NCBI RefSeq assembly: GCF_019649055.1
Contig: NW_026570639.1
Location: forward strand, 1-24,049
DNA: 24,049 nucleotides
Reading direction: 5' to 3'
DNA from: Paramacrobiotus metropolitanus
Lineage: Eukaryota; Tardigrada; Eutardigrada; Parachela; Macrobiotidae
Under the pieces are notes generated by a model. It worked only from the letters and a program-made list of their open reading frames with translations. It was not told the origin of the DNA and searched no databases. Made by a program: the position numbers and the translations under genes. Below are positions 938 to 24,049 of the stretch, in pieces (the stretch's first letter is position 1; every line of letters begins with the position of its first letter).

Positions 938-943
938 ATCGTG
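938..943. repeat. Target-site duplication ATCGTG, left copy
   Basis: ATCGTG directly precedes the left tip TGTGACCGG. The same six bases directly follow the right tip at 11212-11217. This is the direct repeat expected from a staggered-cut insertion. Confidence 0.8.
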
Positions 944-1152
944 TGTGACCGGCAAAAATGTCCCCCCTGTCCCCCCGGACATTTTTGCCGTGTCCCCCCT
1001 GCCACCATCTCCAAAACGGTAACCCTTTGGCCAGAATGGTAACATGGGGGACTTACAACGGAAAGTTGATTTTCAGGTCGATCGGTGACCTTTGAAAATG
1101 TGCCACCAGCGTTACCACGGCGTTACCTGTCCAAAACAGTTGAGGAACATCG
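944..1152 (+). repeat. Left terminal inverted repeat, unique outer part
   Basis: This is identical, as far as I can align by eye, to the reverse complement of 11003-11211. The similarity continues into the minisatellite to at least 1451, pairing with 10704. I found single mismatches at 1348/10807 and 1452/10703. It begins with the TGTGACC tip and includes the hairpin at 950-990. Confidence 0.9.
950..990. repeat. Hairpin at the left transposon tip
   Basis: The 14-base arm CGGCAAAAATGTCC (950-963) is followed, after a C-rich 13-base loop, by its exact reverse complement (977-990). The same structure lies at the right tip. Tip-proximal palindromes could be paired transposase-binding sites; that role is inferred. 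Confidence 0.85.
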
Positions 1153-2245
1153 GTCACCTAAGGACATTACAGCAGAACTGAACTTACAGGTTTCCGGCAA
1201 GGGGGTCATTATTGCCGAAACGAAATTACGGGTGTCAAGCATGGGGGACATTATTGCCGGAACGAAATTACTGGTGTCCGCCATGGGGGACATTATTGCC
1301 GGAACAAAATTACTGATGTCCGACAAGGGTTACATTATTGCCGGAACGAAATTACTGGTATCCGGCATGGGGGACATTATTGTCGGAACGAAATTACTAG
1401 TGTCCGGCATAAGGGACATTATTGCCGGAACGAAATTACTAGTGTCCGGCACGGGGGACATTATTGCCGGAACGAAATTACTAGTGTCCGGCATGGGGGA
1501 CATTATTTCCTGAAAGAAATTACTGGTGTCCGGCATGGTGGACATTATTGCCGGAACGAAATTACTGGTATCCGGCATGGGGGACATTATTGCCGGACAG
1601 AAAATACTGGCATCCGGCATGGGGGAAATTATTGCCGGAATAAAATTACTGGTGTCCGACATGAGGGACATTACTGCCGGAACAACATTACGGGTGTACG
1701 ACATGGGGGACATTATTGTCGGAACGAAATTACTGGTATCCGGCATGGGGGACATTATTGCCGGGACGAAATTACTAGTGTCCGGCATGGGGAACATTAT
1801 TGCCGGAACGAAATTACTAGTGTCCGGCATGGGGGACATTATTGCCGGAACGAAATTACTAGTGTCCGGCATGGGGGACATTATTGCCGGAACAACATTA
1901 CGGGTGTACGACATGGGGGACAATATTGTCGGAACAAAATTATTGGAGTCCGACATGGGGGACATTATTGCCGGAACAAAATTACTGGAGTCCGACACGG
2001 GTTAAATAATTGCTGGAACGAAATTACTGGTATCCGGCATGGGGGACATTATTGCCGGAACGAAATTACTAGTGTCCGGCATGGGGGACATTATTGCCGG
2101 AACAACATTACGGGTGTACGACATGGGGGACAATATTGTCGGAACAAAATTATTGGAGTCCGACATGGGGGACATTATTGCCGGAACAAAATTACTGGAG
2201 TCCGACAAGGGGGACATTATTGCCGGAACGACAATATTGGTGTCG
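1153..2245 (+). repeat. 42-bp minisatellite, left array (about 26 units)
   Basis: The consensus unit contains GGGGGACATTATTGCCGG, then AACGAAATTACT and a GTGTCCGGCAT junction. About 26 imperfect units fit the span. Within it a five-unit (210-bp) higher-order repeat is marked by AACAACATTACGGGTGTACG at 1681, 1891 and 2101. Because 42 is a multiple of three, long open frames occur on both strands. They read as a monotonous 14-residue repeat, begin only at non-ATG codons or inside the repeat, and are not taken as genes. Confidence 0.95.
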
Positions 2246-3158
2246 AGTGTTGACGTTATCGCAAACATTCGCAATAAAGCGGAAATAAGTGACCGATGTT
2301 GCAGAACTGCGGTTAAAATGCTAGACCTTATACTGTACAGTACTCAACGAAAGTCCTGTCAAAGATCCGAGCGCTTTAGTTGATGTTATAATGTTGCCTT
2401 CTTGAAAGGTAATAAATAACAGAATTTCGTAAATCTGTAATAACCGGAAACAGGGTGTTCTTGTTTAGCTAACTGCAAAAAGGGTGCCTGTATTAACGGG
2501 GATCGAAAAGGGGTAGTTATAAAAACGGGGGTGAAAAGGTGAGGCTATAGTGATTTCCGATAAATTCTTAGGTGTTGGGTAGTAAATTACTGATTACCTT
2601 TAATGCATGCTGCAATACAGAGCGCGTAGTAGCAGCGCATACCGGCTACAACGGCTGATCAAAATTAAGTTACTAATTACGCTTAGTTATTACTAACCCC
2701 ACTTATTACTAAGCCCTCACCCACTTATAAGTGTGTGAGTAATTACTTTCTTGCCAGGCTATCACAGTAATCCCACCTATAAGAATACATTGCATAAGAT
2801 GAGCTATGATAATTTTCAGGAATTTTTTGAAAATTCGCTAACGACTTTGTGTTGTCAATTCTAATTACATATACATGTAACTGTTAATTATTCTCATTTA
2901 AATCCGCACTACTAGTACTGCCCCGCACATGAATTCTTATTCCTCGCATTAGCTGCAGGAACGATGGAGATCATGGCGTCAGACTAAGAAAAATATTTGG
3001 TTAACTTACTGCATTTTTTTAGCATGAAGAAGCAGCACCCTAGTGTACTTATCAAACACTGCCGTTACAGTATCAATGTACAGCTCATGGGGAATAATAT
3101 TTCCGAAAATAATGACCAAAAGCAAACGAAAGATTAGCTGCAATTCGAGCTTCTGTAA
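2246..3158. other. Transposon interior, no gene recognised
   Basis: This lies between the left minisatellite and the first plausible coding stretch. It includes purine-rich and AT-rich segments. No domain, tRNA or clear exon was seen. It may hold the promoter and 5' untranslated region of the transposase gene. Confidence 0.5.
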
Positions 3159-3199
3159 AGCTATGGAAAGTTACGTACTTTCAGCGATTTTTGGATCAG

Positions 3200-3551
3200 C
3201 GATTTATTGTGGCGCTGGTTCACCATTCGCTTTATTCAATGGGATCCTGTTGTTCAGTCGCCCAATCCGTCTACCGCGCCTACAGTTAATTATGCTACTA
3301 CTACATTGGAAGTCACACGCAAAGGAGCCCCAGCCGGTCAAAGAGAGATCAAAGCTCCTCCGTATATTCCTAATCGGTCAGCATTCGGTTTTGATATTGA
3401 TCCGAAGAAGACCCGTGCAACAGCGACGACCGCTCCCTAATCTGTATTTCAACGTTATCCGGCAACTGTTCCGATGTTGCCTGTGCTTCCTCGGAAGGCT
3501 GTTACCCTCACCGATGCCACCGTAGAACTATCTGTAATACGCTGTATATAG
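3200..3551 (+). pseudogene. Possible Pro/Thr-rich exon of the transposon with an in-frame stop
   Basis: One frame stays open from 3159 to 3551 except for a single TAA at 3438-3440. It reads as a plausible Pro/Thr-rich protein before the stop (for example PVVQSPNPSTAPTVNYATTT) and after it (RYPATVPMLPVLPRKAV), ending at TAG 3549-3551. TAA could derive from a CAA codon by one transition, so one point mutation would explain the break. There is no ATG at the start, so if real it is an internal exon; AG acceptor candidates lie at 3159-3160 and 3198-3199. I do not recognise the protein. It could belong to the transposase gene upstream of 3908 or be a separate transposon gene. Confidence 0.35.
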
Positions 3552-3907
3552 GCAGTCCAGATTATTTTTAGGCGCTACGGCCAAAATTTTTCTCTATACG
3601 TTTTTTCTGGTGTTTGTGCGTTTACTGCGCCTGGTTCAAAATGCATTAGGTAGAAACGCTGCAGTACTTTGAGTTATGCATATGACCATATCTGTGCATA
3701 CCTGCCGAAATAGAGCTTCAGGTAGCTGCCAATATGTGGAGATTATCAGAGCTGGATACCGGTCTTGATTTCAAATTTAGACATGTTAAATGTTTGACAG
3801 GTAGTTCCTACTTGTTCGTTCGTTTTGGGAGATACAAACGTTTTTACCACACGATTACCTCGTTTGCGGAATCGGAGATCATTAAATAACTGGTTTGGGT
3901 TTTTCAA
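3552..3907. other. Transposon interior, no gene recognised
   Basis: AT-rich sequence directly upstream of the first integrase exon. A promoter or 5' leader would be expected here, but no specific element could be identified. Confidence 0.4.
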
Positions 3908-6900
3908 ATGGCTTCTAAGCAGCATGTTGATTTGCAAGCAATCAAAGAGTATCTAGAGACTCAGAAGTATCCGGCAGGAGTAACGACGAAAAATCAGAAA
4001 CGAGTTTTCCGCAGACGCTCCGATGGATTTTATGTGGGCCAGAACAAACTGTACCGCAAGAAATCGAGCGGAAAGGTTGTTGAAGGTGCCACTCAGAGTG
4101 CTCCAGACGTAATTGTTGTGTTATGCCCTGAAGAAGCAAAAAAGCTAGTGACTGGGTTGCACAGGTAAAATACAGCTTTTAAAGCTTCTCCTTCCAAATT
4201 GTCTTTCTGCTCTCATTAGAAAGGTTCGAAAGAACTAGAGATTTCACGGAATCAGTTAGAAATATTACTTGTATTTAATTACGGGAAGCAAAGTTTATGC
4301 GCGCATCTCATACGATTGAGGCTTTTTCATATTCTAACGACGGGTATCTTTTGGCTCCCTGACTACCTTTTACTTTGTCGGAAGTTGCCATTCCCTAGCC
4401 TGTTTTTAAATGAGAATTAATTTTTCTGCGGCAAGTCATGAGTTTATCTTGCAGTACACTTGGTCACGCTCGTCGAGATGCACTGGAGGCATCTGTCAAC
4501 CGGTTGTATTACTGGAATGGAATACGTCAGACGATAGACGAAGTGGTAATACCACTTGGCACAAAATATTAAAACAACCTGATTGCAGCTGCCTAACTGA
4601 ACATGCATATTTTAGACAAATTCATGTTCAATTCGTGATTCTCGCCGAGAATGCAGACTGGCAGTGTGTCATTTTGACGTCACTAACATACAGGGATTTT
4701 ACGGTGCGCCAACAGGAGAACTACGCATTCGCTCTGTTTCTGTTCGTGTGCTGTCATATGAGCGGTGGTGTGATACCGTGGTAATAGCACTGTCGCTTAA
4801 TTTAAGAATATTGTAAATATTTTTATCACACGTTTTTTTCTCGTTTGAAGAGGATAGTTTTCTGTAAATTTTCATGTACCTGCCCAATTAACAAACATCA
4901 TAGTTTGCGAAAGCGCGCTGTTTAAAAAGTGCCGGGATAAGCACTTGTTGTTATGGGCCTACGATGACTTCAGCGCCCATGAGCTCGGCTCCTAACCACA
5001 GGGCGCCATCCGGGCGAGAATCGTCAATCTGCAACGAACAAGGGAAAGGTTTAGACGCCGTGAAGGAGCCTTTGGCCTCCACAGCTGTACCCGGCCGACC
5101 ATGGGCACTTATCGGATACGATCTGATTGAACTGCCGAAAACGAAGCAAGGGAACGTTTACGTGTTGACCGTCGTGGACTATTTCACGAAGTTCAGGATG
5201 GCTTTCCCGATTCCGGATAAAAAGGCCGAAACCATCGTAGAAAAAATACCACGTGTACTCTCTTTTTGGGATTCCCGAGAATATAATTTCCGACAACGGT
5301 AGGTGCTCACTGAACGGCGAAACGATATTAAATGATCAGCAATCAACAAAATCTCGCATCTATTAATTTTAAGTGAGATCAGATAATTTAAAATCTATTC
5401 CGTTAACTTGCTTGAAATTTCGAATAATAGTAGGTAAAAATAACCGCAAATTATTGAGATGGATATTGTGTTTGCTAGCTCCGCTTAACGCGAGCCTTTT
5501 TTAGGCACGGAGTTCAAGAACGATCCCAACAGGAATATGGAAAAAATGTTAGGCATTCGACACCGTTATGCAAAACCGCGCCATCCACGCACATGCGGTC
5601 AGATAGAACAGGTCAACAAACAGCTGAAAACGTAAGTATGACTGGTCGCGCATTCGCCAGAAACGTACGGATACACATTGAGACTGATATTAACAGTTGC
5701 GTAATTTTGTTTACTGCCGAGCACCATGAAAGATCAGGTTAACTAACTGGCGATTACTGACCACTTGACAGCCGCACACACGCTTATAGCAGTCCCTGTA
5801 AAAAATTGGTAAAGCGATACTTTCGCGAGTGCTTTTTATGAAACTAACAACCATGCCAAGTGGTACTCGTAACACGTTCGCAAAGAGGTTTTGCGCGATT
5901 AGACCAGGATAAACCCGAAAACAAATTGTTTATCCCATAGACATGTATGTTATAGCGAACCTGCGGAAGAACGTTGTTGCCCATCGCACAGACGCAAATA
6001 ATTTTTTATCAAATAATTTTTCAGTTTCCTGTTACAAAATTTTTCTGCCAGAAAGGAAAGAACAGCAGCTGTCAGTTCAACTGATAATTATGGCTAAGAT
6101 ATTGTACCAACAAAAACGGTATTATTGCGTAGATCAGCTTTTGAAGTTTAAAATAAAATCATTCCCAAATAACTCGGCTGTTGATTTTACGAGAATTAAA
6201 TTTGTATCATTTCTCTCTTTTCTTCGTTAAATACGGTAAAAGATTATCGCAGCGTTTTGCAAGAAGTAAACAGTTATCTAATATAGCCACCGACCGATTT
6301 CTAGAAGCTGGTAATATTTGCCGGTATCAACAAGTAATAACTTTCCGGCCGGCTGGGTAACTAATCTGAAGGTAAAAGCGCCGCTATCGGCAAAGCTATA
6401 AAGATTTTTAAATCAAGTCTTTTAGATGTAACAACTTATTTCGTGAAAAGTGTTTTAAATTTAGAAGTGCCAAGAAGAGATGTGCAAATGGGGTGCCAAT
6501 TGTCGAAACGTGGTGTAAAAATACTTTAAAGAAGGTGGTGCGAATAGCTAGAAGGCGGCAAAAGGGATGAGAAAAGCCAAAAGGTGGTGTAAGGTGGTGG
6601 GAATAGCCACACCCAAAAATATAATGCACTTTAGTTCTTAAAGGGTAACGTGGCTGCAATTTTTGAGAAGAAGCTTTCGATTTTTTCTTGACAGAGCTGT
6701 AACATTAAGTCGCTGTTCTCTTCTTCTACATGTTATCTTCGGTTACCGAAATTAGTCTGTAATCCAGGCTTTACACCAACATCGCCTTTTCCTTATGCGA
6801 AAATAGGGCTTGTGCGCGCTGTTGAGTGCAAGATCGTGTGTACAGAACGTTTCGTCAGTTCACGTTGGGAGATTTCCTCGTGCTCATGCATGTAAAATAG

Positions 6901-7566
6901 CCATTGCTAGAAGTACCTGATAACAAGCTTGAATAATTTTGAAATTTTCTTAGTGACTAACACAATACACCCTGGAGCGTGGCGGTGAATGGGATAAATG
7001 GGTGGATGCTGCAGTATTTGCTGCTAATGCAACAGTCCAAAGCACGACTAATTTCACCATTTCGCGTCATGTTTGGGCGTGACCCTAAACTGCCAGACAG
7101 TTGCACCTACGATGGTGATGGTTCTGAGTCTGATGTTGACTGTCGCGAGTTTGATGAAGAGGATCCATTTTCCGATGCTATGCGCGACGACTTTACGCAT
7201 TTACGTCAGGCTGACGAGAAAACCTTATTCGCAAAAGTTGCAGAGAACATTGGATTCGGTCAAGCCCGTCAGCAGCGGAAATATATGAACGCAACCAAGA
7301 AAGGTCGCGATATGGAGATCGGACTGCAGGTGTGGGTGCGAAGCGCTATGGCACCGAAAGGGTCCTTAAAATCCAAGCAGTTTGGCAAAGCAAAGTACAC
7401 GGGCCCCTTCGAAATTGTCGGGATCCAGCGAAAGGTCACGAGTTGAAAGTCCGTTCGGATGAATTTAGTGCCCCGTTTCCGGTTAATATTCGAGACGTGA
7501 AAGCGGTGAAAACGAAACGACACACCGAAAAAAGGTCACTGGTTACCGATGCAAATCAGACGGCAG
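3908..7566 (+). pseudogene. Gypsy/Ginger1-type integrase (transposase) gene, multi-exon, frameshifted
   Basis: This is a DDE integrase expected to cut and join the transposon ends in the nucleus. Exon 3908-4164 starts at ATG and holds the N-terminal YLETQKYP segment and the first zinc-finger His; it joins in phase to 4455-4545 (GHAR, then YYWNGIRQ), completing the His part of the HHCC finger. The core follows: first Asp in GYDLIELPKT, exon ending at 5298 within the DNG codons, then exon 5505-5631 giving DNGTEFKN and the catalytic Glu in GQIEQVNK, with exactly 35 residues between Asp and Glu. The C-terminal part, about 6954-7566, has SPFRVMFGRDPKLP and the GPY/F motif YTGPFEIVGI. Reading frame is broken near 5263-5267, 7052-7054 and 7434-7435, each a one-base change beside a run. 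The joins into the core exon (upstream of about 5040) and at 5631/6954 are not in phase with the acceptors I can see. The second zinc-finger Cys pair shows only one clear Cys. Confidence 0.85.
5632..6953. other. Long intron-like gap within the integrase gene
   Basis: A strong donor GTAAGTATG begins at 5632 and a candidate acceptor CTTAG ends at 6953. At about 1.3 kb this is far longer than the other introns in the window. It contains a G-rich, GGTGGTG-like low-complexity stretch at about 6530-6610. I see no domain and no inverted ends of a nested element. Confidence 0.5.
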
Positions 7567-7874
7567 GTTCGTGCTCAACGATGACTCAGATTCCATATTT
7601 AAGTTTATGTAATTGCCAAATTTTCCGGGGTACGGATTCCGCTAAATTTTAACGTTTTAAATTGTGAATCTCGTTAGAAAATTGCGAACTATTTTAGAAA
7701 CCAGACATTGTGGTCTGAGTTCATCTTGCAGTTGGAAGAAAAACGCATATGCATTACTCACTTCATGATTTCAGAAGCACGGGTCACGCCAGAATGTCCG
7801 CCGGCCATTCCGCGAAATACGAACGGCGCTTCTGGTGCGCATTCTGAACCAGGTGCAGCGCATACCTGGAAAAA

Positions 7875-8384
7875 ATGAGGCATTCCTTCAACAATGAAAT
7901 TTCAGTTCTTTACGCCACTGATTACCAGTCCATGCTGAAAGGAATTCAAATTCTGCGGCCGCTTTTTACGGAATTATCCATTAGCCTTCTTGAGGCAAAT
8001 TTGATGCTATTGGACACAGACAATCAAGGATTTGAGTCCCTAACCGGCGCATTGAAATTGCGTGACGTGTTGCCACGACTGAACGCCCTGGACATCAGCC
8101 AAAAAAGGAAACTTTTCTACACCGACCTTGCGGCACTTCCTTTGGCGGTATTGCAGTGCATTGAAATGGAAGCCTGGCACGCTATCAGAGACGCGCTGCG
8201 AATTTTCGAAAAACTAAGCTCCGAAAACGAAAAGAACGGTGAGAACTTTCACAACATACAATATAAGAACAACTACAAGCAACGTAACGGTCAACCGTGG
8301 ACGTTTGCACTTCCAACAGCTGCGCAACAGCCAGCCGTGGGGAATTGCATCGTTTGCTTCCCAACCGCAGCTGTTAGTTCGTAG
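7875..8384 (+). CDS. Possible linker exon of the transposase, unknown helical region
   Basis: This 169-codon open frame sits between the integrase GPY/F domain and the Ulp1 protease. The first 115 or so residues look like a charged, Leu-rich, probably helical domain (for example LRPLFTELSISLLEANLMLL). The rest is low-complexity Asn/Gln/Ala sequence. I do not recognise a family. It may be an internal segment of the integrase-protease polyprotein, not a separate protein. The ATG at 7875 is not necessarily the start, because the frame is open for several codons upstream. Beyond about 8235 an overlapping frame (8239-8466) is equally plausible. Confidence 0.4.
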   Translation: MRHSFNNEISVLYATDYQSMLKGIQILRPLFTELSISLLEANLMLLDTDNQGFESLTGALKLRDVLPRLNALDISQKRKLFYTDLAALPLAVLQCIEMEAWHAIRDALRIFEKLSSENEKNGENFHNIQYKNNYKQRNGQPWTFALPTAAQQPAVGNCIVCFPTAAVSS

Positions 8385-8637
8385 TTTGGGTAATGGTTGC
8401 GCTTCGACGTCGAAGCGCAACGCTTACGCGGACAAGGCAGCTGTAAACCCATCCCAGATTTTGTGATTACGAATCACAATGTTTGCTTGCTTACGCGCTG
8501 TTACGTCACATTTTTACGCGTTTTCCCGTTACCCGTTGCGCAACGGTTACCCAGATGTAATTGACCTCCACCATTGTATGTTATAATTAGAAATCGCCAT
8601 ACAGAATACGCTTTATGTTTCCTATTTTCTTTTATAG

Positions 8638-9803
8638 AGAGAGATATGGATAGAGCCATCGTCTGGCTCGTGATCACAGAGCCAGTGAAACTAGTGCTAA
8701 CGTACGAAGACTGGACGTCTATCTACTACACTGCCGAATGGCTTACGGATGTCACAGTTTCTGCCGCCCAGATTTTACTGAAAAAACAGTATCCAGACAT
8801 TAACGGACTTGAAAATCCTGTTCAATACAGCATTCCGCGTGCGAACAAGGGAGATTCTTTTAAAACAACGGTGATTGGAATAAGAAAAAAGAAAGAGCGA
8901 AGCAGCGACAAACACTTCCGAAAATCTCAAATTATTTTTACCCAGGGCAACCACTGGATATTCGTAACCAACTACCACGATGGCGAGGCAAACGAAGTGC
9001 TGATCTATGACAGTCTGACTCCGCGTCTTGATTATATCCTCGACCAAGAAATTGCGTCGATCTTCAGGATTCAGTGTTGCGACTCCATAAAAATTCGCTA
9101 TCCTGCTATGATACACCAGGAAAACGGTTGCGATTGTGGAGTTTACGCAATCGCCTACCTTACTGAAAAATGTTACGGTGGGGACCCGGAAAAGAGACGT
9201 TATATCAAGAGGGTAAGTACCATCAGTTCCAGTTTCCAGTTTAGAAATTAGAGCCTACCTAGAATTACGTATATGGGGTAACCACATTCCAAATTTGGGA
9301 GTAAGAACCGTTTTCAATTTCAAAAACTTATTATGCTTTAAACTTAGGAAATGCGGAAGCACTTGATCCAGTGCTTGAAAAACGGTCGCCTTACTCCCTT
9401 TCCGAGCGTGCCTGCAAACCTAAATGGTTCGTCTTTGACAAGAAATACGCTCTTGTACTGTGTTTGCCGGATGCCTGTCGGCTTCAACGGGGAAATTATG
9501 TGGACCTGTGCAGAATGCAAGCGAGGCTACCACCAGTCTTGCGTGACCGCAAAGGATGCGACAGATATATCCACAGTCCAGCCGGCGAACTGGAAATGCC
9601 CAAATTGTGAAGGTGAAATACATCAAGTAGCGACATTGCATTAAAACATTTTATTCCGTTAAAGCTAAACATGGAAAACTTTTTGCATTTCAGACCAACC
9701 GGAAAACCTGAATTCAAACGACATTATAACCGCGAGCCAAGAAACAAGAATACAGAGAGTAGCCACGAGACGCCGGCTGAACCCAGCTACAACCGAGGAT
9801 TAA
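8638..9803 (+). CDS. Ulp1-type cysteine protease plus PHD finger, C-terminal module of the transposon protein
   Basis: Exon 8638-9212 encodes a C48 (Ulp1/SENP-like) peptidase. It starts after the acceptor TTTTATAG and has an EWLTDVTVSAAQILL entry segment, His in GNHWIFV, Asp in LIYDSL, and the Gln and Cys of HQENGCDCGVYAIAY. The catalytic His-Asp-Gln-Cys set is complete. Donor GGTAAGTAC at 9213 joins in phase 0 to exon 9348, which continues MRKHLIQCLKNGRLTPFP and then a PHD finger. All eight ligands of the Cys4-His-Cys3 pattern are present: CVC, CAEC, HQSC and CPNC. The protein may end at TAA 9642-9644. Alternatively it splices at 9612/9694 (weak donor GTGAAA, good acceptor TTTCAG) to a short basic tail ending at 9803. 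The protease probably processes the polyprotein or removes a ubiquitin-like modifier. A PHD finger usually reads histone tails and could guide integration. No frame break is seen here. Confidence 0.85.
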
Positions 9804-9996
9804 CTGTTATGCACTAGAACAAACAGTTTTGCTGTCTTGGCGCGTTCTCACTCAGTCGAGCTTCCCAACGGATTAGAGTAGCAATTCCTTCTGTAACTGG
9901 CACTATAAATTGTAGAAAACCATCTACAGTCGGTCTTCAAGAAGAAAGCTAGTTTCTGAAAAAAAAAACAATTACATTGACAAACAATCCCGCAGC

Positions 9997-11002
9997 ATTG
10001 TCCCCCATGTCGGACACCAGTAATTTCGTTCCGGCAATAATGTCCCCCATGCCGAATACCAGTAATTTCGTTCCGGCAATCATGTCTCCATGCCGAATAC
10101 CAGTAATTTCTTTCCGGCAATAATGTCCCCCATGCCGGATACCAGAAATTTTGTTCCGGCAATAATGTCCCCCATGCCGAATACCAGTAATTTCGTTCCG
10201 GCAATAATGTCTCCATGCCGAATACCAGTAATTTCTTTCCGGCAATAATGTCCCCCATGCCGGATACCAGAAATTTTGTTCCGGCAATAATGTCCCCCAT
10301 GCCGAATACCAGTAATTTCGTTCCGGCAATCATGTCTCCATGCCGAATACCAGTAATTTCTTTCCGGCAAAAATGTCCCCCATTCCGGATACCAGTAATT
10401 TTGTTCCCATGTCGGACACCAGTAATTTCGTTCCGGCAATAATGTCCACCATGCCGGACACCAGTAATTTCTTTCAGGCAATAATGTCCCCCGTGCCGGA
10501 CACTAGTAATTTCGTTCCGGCAACAATGTCCCCCATGCCGGATACCAGTAATTTCGTTCCGGCAATAATGTCCCCCATGCCGGATACTAGTAATTTTGTT
10601 CTGGCAATAATGTCCCCGATGTCGGACACCAGTATTTTCTTTCCGGCAATAATGTCTCCCATGCCTGACACTAGTAATTTCGTTCCGGCAATAATGTCCC
10701 CCATGCCGGACACTAGTAATTTCGTTCCGGCAATAATGTCCCTTATGCCGGACACTAGTAATTTCGTTCCGACAATAATGTCCCCCATGCCGGATACCAG
10801 TAATTTAGTTCCGGCAATAATGTAACCCTTGTCGGACATCAGTAATTTTGTTCCGGCAATAATGTCCCCCATGGCGGACACCAGTAATTTCGTTCCGGCA
10901 ATAATGTCCCCCATGCTTGACACCCGTAATTTCGTTTCGGCAATAATGACCCCCTTGCCGGAAACCTGTAAGTTCAGTTCTGCTGTAATGTCCTTAGGTG
11001 AC
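9997..11002 (-). repeat. 42-bp minisatellite, right array (about 24 units, inverted)
   Basis: Same unit as the left array but in reverse complement (CCGGCAATAATGTCCCCCAT). The inner part carries a three-unit higher-order repeat of 125 bp (42+42+41), marked by ATGTCTCCATGCCGAATACC at 10082, 10207 and 10332. One unit near 10400 is truncated. The outer units are the same, in the same order, as those of the left array up to the pairing 1451/10704. Further inward the arrays differ in unit number and order. Confidence 0.95.
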
Positions 11003-11211
11003 CGATGTTCCTCAACTGTTTTGGACAGGTAACGCCGTGGTAACGCTGGTGGCACATTTTCAAAGGTCACCGATCGACCTGAAAATCAACTTTCCGTTGT
11101 AAGTCCCCCATGTTACCATTCTGGCCAAAGGGTTACCGTTTTGGAGATGGTGGCAGGGGGGACACGGCAAAAATGTCCGGGGGGACAGGGGGGACATTTT
11201 TGCCGGTCACA
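11003..11211 (-). repeat. Right terminal inverted repeat, unique outer part
   Basis: Reverse complement of 944-1152, ending in CCGGTCACA directly before the second ATCGTG. Confidence 0.9.
11165..11205. repeat. Hairpin at the right transposon tip
   Basis: Arms 11165-11178 and 11192-11205 are exact 14-base reverse complements around a G-rich 13-base loop. It mirrors the left-tip hairpin. Confidence 0.85.
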
Positions 11212-11217
11212 ATCGTG
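11212..11217. repeat. Target-site duplication ATCGTG, right copy
   Basis: Identical to 938-943 and in direct orientation, immediately outside the right tip. Confidence 0.8.
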
Positions 11218-12365
11218 AAATAAATCCGAAATCAATTTACTAATTAAAAAGCATTACGTCGAAATCAAACAACCACAGAATATATTTTCATTGCTCGCAA
11301 GACCGTGTTTGCGTATGAAGGTTGATAATCTGTTAGTCTTGCGGAAGGTCACATGTAATCGGGATTACTTTCGGATACAGAGTTTCCTTACAGCGGACTA
11401 CAGAAACAGACTATCGTGAGTCCGTAACGCGTGGTCTATAATCTTGCTATGCCATGTTGCGCGGGAAAACACGCGTCACTCAATAAAATAATTACCCACG
11501 AAATGGACAATTCAATTACACAGCGTTATGTGACGTGGCGAGCTCAAAACCGTTAACTGCAGTATCGTGGATACTTTACCAAAAACAATTCAGCGTTTGA
11601 AGTATACCCAGGACTGGCGTGTAGCAATATTTACAACGGCGAGGTATGCAGAACCAGGACTTCTGCGGGATTTTCCTGGCTTCTGAGTAGAAGTCATTTT
11701 TTTACTAATGGGCAACGTTAATTTTTCAGCGGAAATAAAGTCATGGAGTCTATCGCTTTCCCATCATATCAGATGAGAAGTGTCCAGCAGTGCAGGAGTG
11801 CACAAAGACAGCGGCCAGAGATGCTCACTTTCAATGGCGCAATCGGGGAAATTACGATTACAGATGCTTGTAAAAATAATATTGACATCAAAGGGAAACC
11901 CTGCAGCGTATCATCGGCTTGACCTTTGACTTACGGAATCGCTTCTTACTAAGACCGCATTAGATCAGATAATGCCTCTTTCAGGCGTGCCATTCATCAA
12001 ACACGAGACAGCCTCCACATAGTCATATTAAAGACCTTCGAACAACATTTCCTTCCTGCAGCTACCGATGTACTGATGTTCTAGAGTAGTGAGATGGATG
12101 CCGAGCCTACAACTGCTATACAACATACAGCCAGCCATACAGATGATTAGAAAAATATACTGACGTTGCATCTGTGACCTTTAAGTCACGACTGCAACGG
12201 AGCACGCTATGAAACCGTACACTAGCGATTGACAACAACGTTTTTGCTTTAGTACTGCGCTAGAAACGGTTTCCTATTGCTGAATTTGGCGATTGTTGCA
12301 TCCGTGTGTTTTGTGGCTTCGAATGCATCAGCATACATCACTGCAAGTTACGGATCGGACGCACC
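11218..12365. other. Intergenic, upstream of the GPCR gene
   Basis: No convincing gene. A 60-codon ATG frame at 11743-11922 lacks any recognisable feature. The stretch must hold the promoter and 5' leader of the GPCR, but no core element stands out. Confidence 0.5.
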
Positions 12366-13917
12366 ATGAATATCTCCACACTAAGTACGACTTCTGACAG
12401 CACCGCTTTTAATCTATCAGTTACTGTTGATTATGTTGATCCTGGACAAAAAATATTCTTTTGCGCTCTTCTGGTATTTGAGAGCGTGCTCGGATCCGTT
12501 GCAAATTTAATCGTAAGGATCGCATATCCTTTATCAGACTAGTCAAACGTTAACCTATCCTACATTCTGCGTATGTTTCACGGCACATGCACATTTTACT
12601 TTACAGATCATTCTCGTTATTGCCTGTACGGCTTTTTTGCGTACAATCGAGAACGCTTTTGTAGTCAACTTGGCTTTGGCGGATTTCATTATATCATTTG
12701 TCACTCAACCATCGTCTTCGGTCGGTAAGTCTGTCACTCTGTCTGCATTATTAAAATATCAAAATGAGAATACTAATTTGATTTGCTAACAATAAGGAAC
12801 AATATAAAATGGTCACTTCGTGTACCCATATTTGTGCTTAAAATTTTATTATAGTGTAATAATAATTTAGAACGCAGTAACGTGCCACATTGAGAGTTCC
12901 AGATTACTTAATAAAGTGGATGCGTTGTAAATTTCAACGAATCTCAGATCTTTGTTTGTGTAGGAGTTGTCCTGGGGAAAATTTGGTTCACAACTCATCC
13001 GATTCTCTGCAAAGGTAATGCATAACTTGCAACTTAGAACATGTGCGCTGTTTAAACCTTGTGCGTTGTTTTGGATTGCCAGTTGTCAATGTCATTATCG
13101 ATTTTAAGTTCTAATACCCGTGGTTTTTTGTAGTAATTGCGCAACTGTGCTCTGCCAGCTGTATCGCTACCCACTGGAACACTCTACTGATCGCCATCAA
13201 TCGGTAAATGAACCTCTCCGCCACACCCAACAAACTATCGCAATAACTTGGCTTATGTCAATTGTTTTCAGGTATATCTTGATACGCCATCCCACTCTTT
13301 ATCCCCGTGTGTACACCCGGGGAAGCGTGTTCCTCATGTGCGTAACTGTGTGGGTGGTGATGTTTGGAGCCACTACACCCAATCACGTGGGCGTCGGATG
13401 GGGCTCACTCGGCTTCTCCGATATCCTGTTCGTCTGCACCTTCGCCACCGACCATTATCACTACACCCTTTTTAACGTGTCGGTGTTTTTATTTTTCCCG
13501 GCCATATTAACCTTTATCGCCTATTACGGTATCTACCGACAGGTGCGGATAAGCCGCATCCGAGTGCTGACCGGGCAGCCTGGAAAATCCTTTAGGAAGG
13601 ATATTCGGATTGCCAAGTCCCTGTTTAAGGCGTATGTCGTTTATTTGGTGCTTGTTGCACCCTTTGGTGTAATCATGTTAATTAACATGGGACAGCAGTT
13701 GCTGCATATTTGGTACATGCTGTCGCTGCTGCTGTACCACGGCGTGGGGACGGCCAACTGTTTTCTGTATGCCGTGCGGTTGGGGAAATTCTGGGATGGA
13801 TTGCGGTTGATGTTCCACTTGCCGGTGAAGAGCGAGAGTAGCGGAGCGAGTGGACAATTATCCACGTCGTCGCAACGGGCCCAGGTGACAGCGTCTTCCA
13901 GACGCTCCCATCGATAG
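12366..13917 (+). CDS. Rhodopsin-family (class A) GPCR, five exons, complete
   Basis: A seven-helix plasma-membrane receptor signalling through G proteins; ligand unknown. The exons are 12366-12512, 12607-12724, 12964-13014, 13134-13203 and 13272-13917. All junctions are GT-AG and in phase, giving 343 aa. Start ATG 12366 follows ACC and opens a short N terminus with two N-glycosylation sites (NIS, NLS). Landmarks: helix 1 GSVANL (Asn47), helix 2 NLALAD (Asp75), Cys104 before helix 3, NRY at 128-130 in place of DRY, a partner Cys in extracellular loop 2 (FVCTF), and NCFLY at 291-295 in place of NPxxY. Helix 6 lacks the CWxP motif. The tail is Ser-rich (ESSGASGQLSTSSQRAQ), a likely phosphorylation region. 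The overall look, especially NRYILIRHPTLYPRVY, resembles the Moody/Tre1/melatonin-receptor-like group, but I would not assign a subfamily. Confidence 0.93.
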
Positions 13918-14216
13918 ATGAATGCGTGCGGCTACTGCTTACATAAGTCCTTTGGTTAAGCCTGAAATTATTCCGGTTTCATACAAGTTGAGGGATTTTC
14001 GGTGATATAAACTGGGCACTTCAACATACATATCCTTTGCAAAAAAGCACCCAAATCATGCATTTGCTTTATACGTGTAACGACCACTATCTGGCAGACA
14101 CTGCGGTAATAACTTCTACGGACTACGGAGAATTATTCCTTTTTACACCCTTGATATTTCCCATAAAAACCATTTTTTCATCGACTATTTGTTTAGCTTT
14201 ACGCAGATTGCCGATT

Positions 14217-14245: not shown

Positions 14246-14301
14246 ACAGAGTATATAAGATAAGTTTCTTTAATACCGTAAATGCAGTTACCGTTTCCAG
14301 C

Positions 14302-16918
14302 TTACACATAAGTAAGGCTTACAGATTGCATGAGCCCTTCGATTACAAACTGAATGCGCGAGTAATCAGACAGGCGTCTTAAGCTCATTTCGTTTTGTCG
14401 TTCGTTCACCTTTATCACCGTACTCTGAGATACAGCATCTGCCGCTTTTTCCGCGCTACTGTCTTTGATGGAAAGTTTTCGTGTGCTTAGCGAGGCGAGG
14501 TATGCTTCCCACTCGTTCTCCTCCTCTTCCGTGCTGACAACATGGAATCGCCCACCCCCAAAACGCAGCAAGTGCCCATTGGGCAAACGCAACCGGAAGC
14601 GCTCGCCTTCGACACGGGGCAGCATGCGGTCGCGCAGATTGGTCGGAGTGAAAACCGCCAGAATTAGTGCTAGCAATACAGGTCCAAGAATCCAGCGGAA
14701 ATTTAAGTCGTACCTGCAAAGGTCATTTTATAAGCGCTGGTATGTTAGGAACGGAGGATGCTGATTTGCTGTACATTACCACATCATCTCGCTTTCTGGA
14801 TACGTTTCCCGTTGCTGATTGTAGACTTCTGTGAAAACCATACCACCGCCCACACCGGCGATGGCCCACGCTGTTAAAATCTAACAAAAAAAACGTTGTA
14901 ATGCGTACGTGTACGAGCAGTTAGTACGAAATTCCGTTACCATGCCGTGCGTGGCTCCCACATTTTTGGCCCCGAACTGGTCGGCTAAATATGCCGGCAT
15001 CAAGCCGAATCCGCCTCCATCTGCACAATCCCACAATATTTCGATTACGTACAAATATGTACTGCTAATCTATACAGGCGTACAAGTACAAGTCGTAACT
15101 TCTTACAAAAGAATCCGATAACGAAAGCGCACGTTAATACTCCCGCTAAACTGTCCGCTGCCATAGCGCTAGGCAGACATCCCAGACACACAGCTTGGCA
15201 TATTAGGGACAGTATAAACAGCGCTTTCCGACTCTGGATCAAATCGGATATGAAGGGCAGCAATAGTCGCCCTAACAAGTTCACCTAAATAATTCAGAAC
15301 CGCGGTCGTTCAGAATGGTCGGACGATTCAACGCCCATACAATACTAACCCCGCCCAGTCCGGAATTGATATCGGCGGAAACGGCATTTGATTGCTTCAG
15401 TTGATTTTGCGCTATGCTCTGGATTTTGGAGATACTCAGTAAGCCGGTGATTTCCGATCCAAGAAAGGTGAAGTACTGTATTAAAAGGCACATTAAAGGT
15501 TTGCACGTTTATGCGGATTAGTGTAGCTTCGTAAACAAAAACCGCTTTACCATCATCCAGTATTGAGGAGATGTCAATGATTCCTTCAGGCTCATAGAAA
15601 AATGCTTAGTGTAATCCGGAACAACAACCGTGCTCGATTTGCGGGGTTTCTGTGGATTATCTCCCGTGATGTTTGTCATCTCGATCCCTTGTTTATCCGT
15701 TTTTGCGGTTTCATCTTCTACTTTATCTTTGGTGACAAACAGCTTTTCCGCTCCCTTCACTGTGTGGACTGTTACCCCTTTTACCACATAACCAGGCCTT
15801 GGTAATAAAAAAACACTCCCGTTAATTTGTACTACTGTACATGAAAGCAGACATAAAAATGTGACAAATAGGGAGAACGATTCTTACGGAGGCATACGGA
15901 GTATGAGCGCGGAAACCAGCATGACTACAAAGTAGCACGATCCCAGGATCACAAAGGTCAATTCGATCCCGAGAAATTCCTGTCCGGTGGCGGCGTAATC
16001 TGGACCAATCAGAGCGTTCTGCGTGTATGGCGAAAAGATACTCCCGGCACCAAATCCACACACAGCCAACCCAGCCGCCACCCCACGAATTTCCGGAAAC
16101 CATTTCTGCAATGGTGACACGGGCGAGATGTAGCTGATACCAACGCCCGCACCTCCGATTACACCGTAACCTGAAAAAAGGAGGCAAATTGCGTGATTTG
16201 ACATTATAACCGAGTTTGATGCAGTCATTGTAGACTGCTGTTACCGATGTAGATCAGCCACATCTGGTTAACGTAAACTCCGAGCGCTGCCACTAAATTC
16301 CCCAGGTAGAACAGGCAAGCTCCCAAAATGGCTCCTTTTCGTGGTCCGTTGCGCTCTAACCACGGACCGAGGAAGGCTGCATTCAACGCGAAGATGGCAA
16401 CGGCCAGGTAGAAAACATTGACAGCTGTAAAAAGAATCAGGGAGATCATGTGTGAGATAAATTTCTATCATAAAAGGTCATGAAAAACTCAGCAAGAGTG
16501 TGTGATTATTCTAGAACTGAAAGTTCCGCTCTCGTACCGATTGCTCGATCCGTAGCTCCATTAAACCCGTACAATCTGGCCTCGAGAGGCAAATTGAAGC
16601 CGCTCCATGCGTACAATGAACCACAACAAACCTACAGAAAATCTAGTTACAGATGCCGCAACACATCAGTTGCGCTTGTTCTTTGGCAAATTTTGAGCGC
16701 AGAATGTATAGGTTATTAAGCGGATCCATACTGCAAAACCGTGAAACGGCTCGTACTTGGATCAGTACTGCTGCCGGCATCAGCATGTAACGATTGAACG
16801 GGATCAGTTTCGGAATAAGCCATTGTTCACGTTCCAGCTGCTTTTCGGTGCGCGGATAGCTCGTTTCGCTGTAATGGTACTTGACAGCACTTTTAACCTT
16901 TCGCACGAACTTGCTCAT
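14302..16918 (-). CDS. OFA-type major-facilitator transporter, paralogue A (ten exons)
   Basis: Predicted twelve-helix carrier of the oxalate/formate antiporter (OFA) branch, moving small carboxylates or related anions across a membrane; substrate not deducible. Minus-strand exons in order: 16757-16918, 16538-16631, 16245-16424, 15888-16170, 15551-15797, 15350-15475, 15107-15284, 14941-15020, 14780-14880, 14302-14713. All junctions are GT-AG and in phase, giving 620 aa. The start is the ATG that matches paralogue B's start after 162-bp first exons. Seen: basic N terminus, CCGSLYAWSGF in helix 1 (OFA-like), GAGVGISYISPVSPLQKWFP with KWFPEIRG at 168-175, PPPGYVVKG entering the central cytoplasmic loop, and a hydrophilic acidic C-terminal tail (TEEEENEWEAYL). 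The central loop is seven codons shorter than in B. Introns are mostly 60-125 bp. Confidence 0.92.
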
Positions 16919-17742
16919 ATTGGATGGCTGCACAGTCTGCGCAAATTATTCGCGGAAGTGGGGTATTCTGATGGACGGGTCGATCGGACAATACCGCTAC
17001 AAATCCACTCACCGACGAACAATAACTGCCGGTGATAAGGAAATAATCAGCGTCATGAGTAAACAGAAAGAATATCCAAATAGCCGGACGAACACTCCTC
17101 ACAGTTTAGCTTTGCACACTTAACCGAAGATGTGCACTGCAAAATGGAATACCTTACTTTACTTGACTGAAACTGGATGAATGACTGCTTAGTGCTTACA
17201 ATTTGACTTTAATGCGATAAGGGATGATTAATGGGGCAAGTGATTTCACCGTTGATAGTAATTTCGCTTCAGCACATGTTAAGGTATTGTCATGCGGTTT
17301 CATGGGATTTTCATATATGAGCGTACAGTATATGCTTACTTCTACAACAACACAAATACAGTAATTCGCTGTGCTTTGTAGATACTTATTGTCGGCGTAC
17401 CGCTGACGGTTAACGATAAACTGTGGACTTGGCTAAAACTTATGTACATGTATGCGCGTTGCGCTGGCAATAGTCAGCGCTTAACTTAAAATATACAAAA
17501 ATGTATCTTACTGTATCACTGTACAGTGTACATAACTCTTCAGTACAACATAAACCGTTTGTACCATGGCTTTTACAACAAGTGGCATGTGCGAAACCAA
17601 AAGCACAAGGTACAAAATAAATACTCTAAACTTTTTTCACATCGACTTAACAATTCTCAATTCCAAAAAATGCTCATCCGTACTGACAAATGACAAAAAA
17701 GGATCCCCAAAGAACACACGCTGTGTACATATAAAAAACCTC
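16919..17742. other. Intergenic between the two transporter paralogues
   Basis: AT-rich sequence that should contain the promoter of paralogue A and the 3' untranslated region of paralogue B. No obvious AATAAA for B was seen on the minus strand close to its stop. No gene recognised. Confidence 0.5.
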
Positions 17743-20700
17743 CTACGAGGAAAATCGTGGCCAGTGGGCTTGACGTCCGGTCGGCTCTATGCTCCTTTCG
17801 CGATTTTTCTCATTAAAGGACGGTAAGGTCGCTTCTGAGTCAGAAATAAACATTTTAGCAGGCCGATCCGGGGTCGTGGACCCTTTCCGGCTATCCTGCT
17901 TTTCAGCGTCCACGTGCAGCGATGACAAATAGGCCTGCCATTCAGCTTCCTCCTCCTCGACGCTAACCGTACGAAATCGTCCGTTAATGAGCCTGACCAT
18001 TCGACCAAAAGGTAGCCGGAAGCGCAGGCGTTCGCCTTCCACGCGCGGGAGTTTTTGGTCGCGGAGATTTGTTGGCGTTAAGATCGCTAAGATTAGCGCA
18101 AATAATACTGGAGCCAAAATCCATCGGAAGTTGACATCGTACCTGTAATACATTGTTAATTATTTCTCTACATGTCCGATAAAAGTTATATACGAGTACG
18201 CCAACAGCAAGAGAGTGAATTAGGTACTTTTCTACACCAACACGAATCTGATGGAACCCAGCTAAAATTAGAAAATCGTACCACATCATTTTGGAATCCG
18301 GATAAGCGAGCCGCTGTTGATTATAAACAGCGGTAAAAATGAGACCGCCGCAAACGCCGGCAATAGCCCAAGCAGTCAAGATCTAAAAGTTTCAGTTTAT
18401 AGCCATTCCTAGCTTTTTTAAATTATTGCTATGTACAAGCGTGCGGACTTACTACGCCGTGCGTTGCTCCCACATTCTTAGCGCCAAACTGGTCAGCTAA
18501 ATACGCTGGAATCATACCGAAGCCTCCACCATCTGCAATGTATCACAATCCCTTCATCGTCAGTACAAATAATTCTCGAAAATCATTTGACACAACTGAA
18601 GCGGAGTTTCGTTAGATGAATAAAGACCGGCTATAGCTAGAAAAATATTTAGCTGCACACTTACAGAAGAATCCGATGATAAAGGCGCACGTCAGCACAC
18701 CACCTAAACTCTGTGCATCCAACGCACTAGGCAGACATCCCAAGCACACAGCTTGACAGATCAGTGAAAAGATGAAGAGGGTCTTCCGGCTTTTAATCAA
18801 ATCTGAGACAAGTGGCAATATTAAGCGTCCCAGAAGATTTACCTATAGAAACTGGTTTTAGTGAAGCAGCCAAGGAAAAAGTGCGTGTTCGCACTGACCC
18901 CGCCCAAACCGGAGTTGATATCCGCCGATACGGAGTCCGACTGTTTGAGTTGATTCTGAGCAATACTTTGGATTTTGGAGATAATCAGGAGTCCAGTAAT
19001 TTCCGATCCCAAGAACATAAAATACTAAAAATTAATGAGGTTCAGGTCAGGCATTTTTCTAGTGATGAGAATGTGTACAAAAAACGGATAAACAATTTCT
19101 TATCATAGAAGAGGACAAAAGCTTTGTGTTTTTGATTTGCGCATTCATTTTACTGACCATCATCCAGTACTGTGGGGACGTGAGCGCCTGCTTGAGCGAC
19201 ATGGAAAAGTGTTTAGCATAGTCCGGCAGCACATCCACCACTGAGTGGCCTTTTGAGCGGCTGCGGCTTTTGCGCGCGGCCATCTTATCCATCTCCATGT
19301 CGGCTTCGACTTTCCCATTTTCCGCTGCCGGCACCGGATCGTCGACCACGGTTTTCTTGGCCACGAACAAATTCTCGGCGCCTTTGACCGTGTGCACCGT
19401 CACGCCTTTCACCACGTATCCCGGCCTACAAAATAGCTATATTAATATTGTGAAGGTGCAACTCGAGCTTTACAAATAGCTCTAAGTGTTTGCCGAGGAA
19501 ATCAAAATATGCATTTGACACATTACTTTTTATGGATAGGTGTTAATTACTCTGTACACATTTTCGTCAAACATTGCAAATATTATTATCTGTACATATG
19601 GCAGTAGTGGAATGTCATTTAAGTGTTCTTGTTGCGATCAAAATATATTGCCCAGGAAATTCGGGGAGTAATAAAAAAATACTGTTCTAGCGAAATTAGA
19701 GCTCTAGATTGCAGACTATTTTGAAAGGCAGTTTTCTGCTACTATACGAACAAACGCGGCACTTACGGAGGCATACGGAGGACCATTGCGCAAAGAGCCA
19801 TGATAACAAAATAGCAGGAACCCAGGATGACAAAGGTTAGCTCAATGCCCAGATTGATCTGTCCGGTCTTGGCGTAGTCCGGTCCAATTAAAGCCTTCTG
19901 TGTGTAAGGCGAGAAGATGCTACCGGCACCGAAGCCGCACACCGCCAATCCCGCCGCGATGCCTCGCATCTCCGGAAACCATTTTTGCAACGGTGACACC
20001 GGGGAGATGTAGCTTATGCCCAGACCGGCGCCGCCAATAACACCGTATCCTGGAAAAATTTTGATGTAGTATACATAATACATATGTGCTGTCAGTTACG
20101 TTCTGATGGTTTACAATTCGCGGCTTATATTAAACTAGGTACACATTCTGGTAGTTTTATAATTTACTGTACTGTACCGATAAATATCAGCCACATTTGG
20201 TTGACGTAGACGCCGAGAGCGGTAACCAAATTGCCCAGGTAAAACAGACAGGCGCCCAACATAGCTCCCTTCAGTGGCCCGTTGCGCTCCATCCAGGGCC
20301 CAAGGAAGGCGGCGTTCAGGGCGAAAATCGCCACGGCCACGTAGAAGACGTTGACAGCTGCACAAAAAAATTTTAACAAGAAATTAATACTATAAAATTA
20401 AAGATTCACCTGCGTATTATTCTCACCAATAGCGCGATCCACGCCTTTATTAAATCCATACAGTTTAGCTTCGATAGGTAAATTGAATCCGCTCCAGGCG
20501 TACAGGGAACCACAGCATACCTAGAACATGATGAATGCTAGATGGTATTGATAACAACTATATTAACTGGCTGGTAGCGATAGATAAGTTAAAGAATGCA
20601 ATTATTGCTTGAGCGGGGTGTATATAATAATTAACCCCAAAAACTAGCAAACCTGAATGAGAACAGCCGCTGGCATCAGCATGTAGCGACTGAACGGGAT

Positions 20701-20814
20701 CAGTTTGGGGATGAGCCATCGTTCCCGTTCCAGCTGGTCCTCGGTGCGGACGTACTTCGTCTCGCTGTAATGGTACGCAATGGCTTTCTTGATTTTATGC
20801 CAAATAGCGCTCAT
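17743..20814 (-). CDS. OFA-type major-facilitator transporter, paralogue B (ten exons)
   Basis: Tandem sister of paralogue A with the same predicted role. Minus-strand exons in order: 20653-20814, 20427-20520, 20178-20357, 19767-20049, 19158-19425, 18899-19024, 18665-18842, 18453-18532, 18282-18382, 17743-18142. All are in phase, giving 623 aa. Exons 1-4 and 6-9 have exactly the same lengths as in A; only the loop exon (268 vs 247 bp) and the last exon (400 vs 412 bp) differ. Motifs include CCGSLYAWSGF near residues 56-66, GGAGLGISYISPVSPLQ, KWFPEMRG (168-175) and LRMPPPGYVVKG. The central loop has an Arg/Ser/Lys cluster (RKSRSRSKG), and the last exon carries EEEEAEWQAYLSSL followed by a tail unlike A's. 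The first intron has an unusual GTTTGC donor. Introns are generally longer than in A (up to 341 bp). Confidence 0.92.
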
Positions 20815-23006: not shown

Positions 23007-23357
23007 ACTACACAAAATCCTGCAGAGCTAAGAAATTTTGTTTTTATTACTCATATAGACTCCGTGTGACTATTTTACCGACTTTTTCCCAAATTGTGGT
23101 GTATCTGCGACACTGCGTATCATTTTATGAGATGCTATGTTTGCCGTAGCCAACCCAGAATGACCTTTATAAATGACCACACTCGCAATGTTAGTACTAT
23201 TTAGTCCGATTCATTGAGATATCAATTTCTCGAAACTAAAAGATAACATAAAATTTGGACCATTCCGCATAATTATTATTAAGACGGCTCAAATTGCCAT
23301 ATCAGCCTGATACGGTACACCACAAATTCTAACGACGCAACCCATCGTGGAGGATGC

Positions 23358-24049
23358 TTATTGGATTCCAACGCAGCACCAGGACTTCTTCCATTCTTTA
23401 TTGACGCATAGCAGCAGAATCGGATCTACCACGGTTTCCACGTAGAACATCAAGAACGACACGTAGAACGCCACATTCACACCGGGATCCGACACCCCGC
23501 CAAATGTTCCCATACCCAAGGCCACCCCAATGGGCACCCAGCAGAAAATGGTCCACAAGGTCATGAAAAAGTACGTTCTGTACAGATTCCGATCGGTCAG
23601 GGATCGTACCGGACCAACCAGTCTTCCGGAGGCGGAACCTTGGGTACTCCGAATAGACCGGTTGGAACAGGCGATTAAATCGACTCGTCTGGTGGCGCTT
23701 CTCCGCACGTGCCAAATCACGATAAAGCCCACAAAAATAGTCACCATCGGCGTTAACACAAAGAGAACATACCGCACCGTTGTCAGTTCGCTCATGGCGC
23801 GAACGTTCATCCAGCACCGACCAGGTTCTTTCTTGATTCGATAATACAGCGCATCTAACAACACCGCTACACTTTGCAATGTATTAGAATACAACCATAT
23901 CGCGATGCAAAATCCGATGGCCACAGTTTTGGTGTGGTCCGCCCGATATGAATGCGGCAGAAAAACAGCCCACAGTCGGTTGATGCTGATGAGGAGATGG
24001 GATAAAATGACAACGGCCGTCGAGTCACGAAAATATAAGACCAATGTGC
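23358..24049 (-). CDS. Rhodopsin-family (class A) GPCR, 3' part, runs off the window
   Basis: The frame is open from the window edge to a stop at 23358 and covers helices 3 to 7 in one exon. Landmarks: helix 3 ends in INRLWAVF (NRL in place of DRY), with a Cys in extracellular loop 2 (GRCWMN). A long basic third intracellular loop (RRSATRRVDL, SNRSIRSTQG) precedes helix 6, which has the CWVP motif. Helix 7 has VDPILLL in place of NPxxY, and the tail is short and Cys-containing (KKSWCCVGIQ). The N terminus and helices 1-2 must lie beyond 24049. It differs from the first GPCR in having CWxP and a long third loop, so the two are not recent duplicates. Ligand unknown. Confidence 0.88.
   Translation of the reverse strand, partial: TLVLYFRDSTAVVILSHLLISINRLWAVFLPHSYRADHTKTVAIGFCIAIWLYSNTLQSVAVLLDALYYRIKKEPGRCWMNVRAMSELTTVRYVLFVLTPMVTIFVGFIVIWHVRRSATRRVDLIACSNRSIRSTQGSASGRLVGPVRSLTDRNLYRTYFFMTLWTIFCWVPIGVALGMGTFGGVSDPGVNVAFYVSFLMFYVETVVDPILLLCVNKEWKKSWCCVGIQ

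Follow-up and report, generated by a model that had tools for sequence, protein, structure and literature searches.

The Ginger1 transposons, as far as the available part of their description extends, have terminal inverted repeats (TIRs) of about 40-270 bp, element lengths of 2.6-7 kb and 4-bp target-site duplications of the form CCGG or CCGT/ACGG, and one of them, Ginger1-9_HM, carries both Ulp1 and PHD domains (PMC2836005). Foldback elements, on the other side, form a structural class of many origins. Most belong to Mutator according to the accessible sections of the Tetris study, where the arm tandem repeats of Tetris share sequence with its terminal domain (37 bp) and the element was put in Mutator by its 8-10-bp duplications, no transposase having been found (PMC4079207). 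Galileo is a foldback-like element of the P superfamily, and its tandem repeats were proposed, in the excerpts at hand, as secondary transposase-binding sites (PMC3573991). Here we analyze a stretch of 24,049 nucleotides from the tardigrade Paramacrobiotus metropolitanus (contig NW_026570639.1, positions 1 to 24,049), hereafter called the window. Its positions 944-11211 hold a single DNA transposon of 10,268 bp, with exact coordinates, which is in our judgement likely to be a cut-and-paste element of Ginger1 type with foldback anatomy.

Architecture and boundaries of the element

The two tips of the window element, 944-1165 and 10990-11211, are identical as inverted repeats at 222 of 222 positions, and an inner inverted repeat was recognized by eye in each. 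Directly inside the tips lie long minisatellite arms. The features of the ends are the following:

938..943, no strand: left target-site duplication, ATCGTG; one copy in the empty site on contig C13
944..1165, plus strand: left tip, 222 bp, 5' start TGTGACCGGCAAAAATGTCC; inner inverted repeat at about 949-963 / 977-990, by eye
1162..2244, plus strand: left arm, 42-bp minisatellite, about 25.5 units
9988..10993, minus strand: right arm, inverted 42-bp minisatellite, 9.8 + 13.7 units (two rows of Tandem Repeats Finder)
10990..11211, minus strand: right tip, same as the left tip over 222 bp
11212..11217, no strand: right target-site duplication, ATCGTG

The arms are 95% complementary across 806 nt. 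Next to the tips they are identical in register at 503 of 504 positions, the following stretch agrees at 259 of 294, and farther in the register is lost. When the genome was searched (170 Mb in 533 contigs, which are designated here by C-numbers), the joined flanks of the element matched C13:730726-731067 with 87% identity over bases 1-337 of 400. This match runs unbroken across the flank junction at base 200, with a single ATCGTG and no element. Since the empty site has only one ATCGTG, the gene and the ends entered together as one unit with a 6-bp target duplication, and the boundaries of the element are thereby fixed.

The gene and its relation to Ginger1

The gene between the arms has several exons and encodes, in order, a YPYY-like motif, half of an HHCC zinc finger, an integrase core, a GPF motif, a region without Pfam match, an Ulp1-like domain and a PHD finger:

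3908..4165, plus strand: exon with the YPYY-like motif (KYP...FYV...LYRKK), limits approximate
4459..4545, plus strand: exon with the first half of the HHCC zinc finger (GHARRDALEASVNRLYYWNGIRQTIDE), limits approximate
4904..5299, plus strand: integrase core exon with the first and second catalytic Asp; frame change between 5194 and 5265
5507..5632, plus strand: integrase exon with the catalytic Glu (GQIEQVNK); DD35E spacing counted by eye
6981..7446, plus strand: C-terminal part of the integrase with the GPF motif; frame change between 7043 and 7051
7848..8381, plus strand: stretch between integrase and Ulp1 that has no match in Pfam; conserved, and can be aligned in B, C and E
8565..9248, plus strand: open frame with the Ulp1-like (C48) domain; His, Asp and Cys present (NHW, YDS, DCG)
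9348..9644, plus strand: open frame with the PHD finger, matching the PHD profile

In the window copy the rve match (E 1.1e-4, 22.9 bits) falls under its cut-off of 32.6 and the Ulp1-like match to PF02902 (19.5 bits) under its cut-off of 20.7; the PHD match (E 1.2e-6) lies over its own. The window gene is broken because the integrase frame shifts within two exons. The spliced exons of a related family, here called B (the window element belonging to family A), matched PF17921 (H2C2) at E 4.9e-10 and PF00665 (rve) at E 3.6e-14, and the YPYY and GPY/F motifs could be recognized by eye in both families (KYP/QYP...LYRKK/LYFIA; TGPF/LGPF). Sequence searches of the PDB with the integrase returned PFV (the prototype foamy virus enzyme) at 1.9e-37 and Ty3 at 6.2e-27. 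Four of seven Ulp1 copies matched PF02902 at E <= 0.1, the best at 0.00015. The first 46 residues of the open frame that starts at 4904 (window 4904-5041) also match many other genomic positions where the rest of the integrase is absent; these residues probably belong to another repeat adjoining the exon.

The initial annotation had described a Ginger1-like transposon with one gene body for integrase, Ulp1 and PHD, enclosed by inverted tips and ends of 42-bp repeats, and the tips, arrays and profile matches agree with it. The protein plan is indeed that of Ginger1: an H2C2/HHCC finger with a Gypsy-kind DDE core (in pieces in the window copy), YPYY and GPY/F motifs, C-terminal Ulp1 and PHD domains, where Ginger1 elements have OTU or Ulp1 and some of them PHD, and introns. 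To this are added a 5' TGTNR terminus (here TGTGA and TGTAA) and a target with a central CG, all of them Ginger1 traits in the part of the original description available. The ends, however, depart from that description. The 222-bp tips are followed by minisatellite arms of up to kilobases, copies reach 12.2 kb, and the duplication is one of 6 bp and not the 4 bp of Ginger1 (exact in 20 of 48 tip pairs at 6 bp and in 0 of 48 at 4 bp). The element works like Ginger1 but, given the TIR and duplication lengths, it is not filed as a plain Ginger1. It does show what defines the foldback class, that is, long tandem-repeat inverted ends, variable middles and gene-less copies. Neither a Ginger element with foldback arms nor a 6-bp duplication in a Ginger1-type element was found in the literature searched, a weak sample of mostly titles and abstracts with little subscription literature, and the combination of foldback arms with an integrase-type transposase may thus be undescribed.

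An integrase of the Gypsy kind could also come from a decayed long terminal repeat (LTR) retrotransposon or a Polinton, and Polintons share the 6-bp duplication found here; they have it in common with IS3EU/GingerRoot elements, together with an integrase-like DDE, in the portion of the survey consulted (PMC10045372). The same source, within that portion, gives both groups as lacking HHCC and Polintons as lacking H2C2, whereas family B has an H2C2 finger, and it gives the ends of IS3EU/GingerRoot as mostly TA..TA (PMC10045372). The ends of the present element are moreover inverted and not direct, as those of an LTR element would be. Polintons also carry virus-like genes. No reverse transcriptase, polymerase or capsid match appeared in the 15 window frames scanned of the 60 listed, and with the inverted ends this led us to reject both origins, which we hold to be exceedingly improbable.

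Integrase searches, one of which scored the best 8000 word-sharing candidates, matched Paramacrobiotus LOC129601840, Penaeus LOC122248828, Gypsy-type integrases and a few others. The identification of Penaeus LOC122248828 as the domesticated Ginger1 gene Imagin was dropped; the available part of the corresponding report names another locus (PMC12863088).

Copies of family A

The family A tip pattern had 64 matches in the genome versus 0 for its reversed control, and a broader pattern covering the tips of the window and of related families had 246 versus 2, so the tips are not due to chance. Of 98 tip candidates, 40 were scored and 30 are given as loci. All 30 have an array directly inside the tip (for L013 this refers to the partner end; its own has 51 bp), and inverted 42-bp arrays of 51-3802 bp lie inside both tips in each of the 16 copies read through both ends. 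In three of these 16 (C419, C35 and C245) integrase and Ulp1 matches occur together with the arms and with different duplications; an integrase piece is also present in C135, which was partly read.

The ends could have been a separate foldback element that received or captured an integrase gene, and many copies do combine the same ends with unrelated middles without integrase: in most other family A copies the middle lacks the gene, and these middles form groups without a match to those of C419, C35 and C245. The initial annotation had anticipated that such an origin would be betrayed by copies without the minisatellite, or by integrase and ends never occurring together, and had advised looking for further copies by their terminal sequence; that search gave the 30 array-bearing loci, the 16 double-armed copies and the three with gene and arms just described. 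C419 and C35 share gene and arms at different sites, being 95-100% identical where their middles align, with different duplications and no match between their flanks (nor did the flanks of C35 and C245 match those of the window). The same plan is present in C245 at just 65% Ulp1 protein identity to C419, and in the families treated below integrase (B and C) or the Ulp1-PHD part (E) is paired with other arrays. The empty site and this recurrence go far towards refuting a separate origin of the ends, which we consider highly improbable.

In C245 and C419 the tips are about 93% alike and the integrase exons 77% in protein; that the tips are closer than the gene suggests that ends have been exchanged among copies. 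In C58:99203 the right tip is 99.6% like that of C46 and the left tip 97.8% like that of C44, without a matching duplication, as a recombinant would be expected to look. Among 15 copies, left and right tips were 80 to 100% identical, with five copies below 91%, and likeness anchored at the tips extended for at least 0.7 kb in 14 of the 15 copies measured (search within 2 kb), the exception being a copy of 893 bp.

Two copies have supernumerary tips. C46:84326-90309 contains an additional right tip at 88942, and C59:750263-757374 has three left tips at intervals of about 1.1-1.2 kb, patterns that duplication of an entire arm would give.

Target-site duplications and very short tip pairs

Duplications were counted in 48 tip pairs taken from the listed matches, a subset of the 246 pattern matches, leaving out C1:590103, with 14 bp lost from its right tip, and on C46 the inner tip. 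Besides the 20 pairs with an exact 6-bp duplication, 14 had one mismatch and 14 neither; the respective numbers were 9, 4 and 6 in family A (n=19) and 11, 10 and 8 among other tip types (n=29). None of the 48 pairs had an exact duplication of 3, 4, 5, 7 or 8 bp, and swapped pairs, used as a control, gave an exact 6-bp match in 13 of 2256 cases. The target is recognizable: CG occupies positions 3-4 in at least one copy in 32 of the 34 pairs that are exact or have a single mismatch, the consensus being approximately NACGTN, and 8 of the 14 single mismatches fall on the central CG as C/T or G/A differences.

Among the matches listed, nine tip pairs without any array span only 40, 43, 57, 57, 57, 67, 77, 77 and 77 bp:

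Short tip pairs: C22:669961-670000; C25:100540-100596; C35:1153613-1153669
Short tip pairs: C59:145699-145755; C46:390862-390938; C261:80851-80927
Short tip pairs: C22:616397-616473; C418:7724-7790; C72:232946-232988

Their duplication is exact in two, has one mismatch in six and is missing in one. Such pairs may move at this size, or they may be what is left of larger elements that were inserted and then lost their middle. Long inverted repeats readily undergo hairpin deletion, and a duplication proves only that something was inserted, so that these pairs could be the scars left by deletion of a hairpin-forming middle. The 77-bp form of one build, however, is present at three separate loci, each with its own duplication, and three loci also hold 57-bp forms (two with one tip type and one with another). 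The short copies differ in sequence, a fact with which separate deletions are compatible, and we give the scar reading an even chance. If such pairs of 40-77 bp are mobile, they would be very small mobile DNA.

Related families

Arrays of other units accompany relatives of the window gene. In family B, C58:163779-175329 is a diverged relative between 31-bp arrays, with inverted repeats of 1.5 kb at 88% identity, and a shorter copy, C1:3582237-3586804, carries a 31-bp array at each end as well as integrase exons, its duplication containing one mismatch. Family C, on C252, has a tip at the right end only, together with 69 units of 32 bp; no left tip was found in C252:1-14000. Family E, at C84:335671-341202, carries a 32-bp array at each end and Ulp1-PHD blocks without integrase; its CACGTG duplication is exact. 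The integrases of A, B and C formed one clade with 100/100 support in a tree of 14 rows with long branches and no labelled Ginger1. Occurring in four families with units of 42, 31, 32 and 32 bp, the foldback arms look like a trait of the lineage. At another gene-bearing locus, on C284, two 200-base end probes contained no tandem repeat, a result that decides nothing; residues 31-255 of the P. metropolitanus protein LOC129601840 are 99% identical to C284.

The Ulp1-PHD block is doubled in B, C and E (loci L059, L060 and L096), and its presence twice in B and C is a further difference from Ginger1. The second Ulp1 copies of the three families have Ser at the position of the catalytic Cys, and those of C and E also Arg for His; judged by these residues, they look like inactive proteases within open frames. 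A counterpart of the region 7848-8381, again without Pfam match, recurs ahead of the second Ulp1 in C and E.

Tips, arrays and a possible mechanism

When each array unit was compared with the tips, the best match over 16 columns reached 15 in A, 14 in B and 14 in C, always with the family's own tip as the best among those compared, and shuffled sequences attained these scores in 0 of 1000 trials each. That the unit is nearest to its own tip in three of the four families suggests that transposase sites have been multiplied. The simplest reading of this comparison is that the arrays repeat a predicted transposase-binding site, as was proposed for Galileo. Long repetitive inverted ends, gene-less and chimeric copies and proposed secondary sites within the repeats are all points of likeness with Galileo, insofar as the excerpts describe it. 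Tetris, in the sections accessible, is similar in that its arm repeats resemble the terminal domain; it differs in its assignment to Mutator by duplications of 8-10 bp and in that its transposase was not found. The enzyme of the present element is of the integrase type, whereas that of Galileo is P-type. Galileo is not known to carry an integrase, Ulp1 or PHD.

In the mechanism that we envisage, the element's own integrase-like DDE transposase would bind a short motif near each tip, cut at TGT...ACA and join the ends to target sites of about NACGTN, the central CG being the midpoint of a 6-bp stagger. The arms would consist of that same tip motif, repeated and expanded directly inside the tip, and would probably serve as helpful secondary binding sites and as a substrate for recombination. 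Recombination between arms could account for their likeness in many copies, which in the window copy is greatest beside the tip, as well as for changes in arm length and for chimeric and gene-less copies. We tentatively propose, rating it somewhat below an even chance, a distinct integrase-type lineage in which the stagger changed from 4 to 6 bp while the CG-centred target was kept, the arms arose by multiplication of the element's own binding site, tip and array changed together in each family, and tip pairs of 40-77 bp are also moved.

The arms may instead be functionless, a tandem repeat born by slippage within the terminal repeat and drifting by unequal exchange, the tips being sufficient. 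Eight of the nine array-less pairs have 6-bp duplications with at most one mismatch, which indicates that arrays are not needed for insertion, unless the middle was lost later; the wide span of array lengths, 51 to 3802 bp, and the weak match of unit and tip in family E point in the same direction. Against this stand the presence of arrays in each of the 16 A copies read through both ends and, with units that differ, in four families, and the 16-column affinity of the unit to its own tip in three of them. We regard functionless arms as rather unlikely.

Several observations weigh against the proposal of a Ginger1-type element with multiplied binding sites. At 14 columns, shuffles reach the A, B and C scores in 3, 7 and 0 of 1000 trials and the unit of B ties with the A tip. 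The unit of family E agrees with its own tip at 13 of 16 positions and with the C tip at 14 of 16, and 13 is reached by 14 of 500 shuffles. All three gene-bearing A copies look broken, and the Ulp1 domain is weak by sequence, Ulp1 proteases appearing in the PDB sequence search only at E 0.12-0.49; for the Ulp1-PHD part no outside homologue was found among 660 candidates. No duplication accompanies 14 of the 48 tip pairs, one of which is the long family B copy on C58. Homogenisation of the arms is common, not general. Beyond or against the initial annotation, besides the 6-bp duplication, are the many copies that have these ends but not the gene, and the array-less short copies with related tip types.

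Surroundings and significance

On the minus strand of the window, positions 12360-13920, 14300-16900, 17700-20800 and 23300-24049 contain two genes that we take, by eye, to be G protein-coupled receptor (GPCR) genes and two adjoining paralogues that are presumably major facilitator superfamily (MFS) transporters; a similar exon fragment, also recognized by eye, lies at 1-180. The element looks to sit in a gene neighbourhood with duplicates.

Foldback arms on integrase-type elements, in addition to the mostly Mutator-type and P-type ones described, would make this anatomy a convergent outcome across enzyme classes. Their presence on integrase-type elements of several families supports the idea that extra transposase sites or recombination between arms favour foldback anatomy, and the four families, with distinct units and tips, offer a natural experiment on the joint change of tip and array. 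The 6-bp stagger in Ginger1-like elements warns against sorting superfamilies by duplication length alone and is relevant to evolutionary shifts of integrase geometry between 4 and 6 bp.

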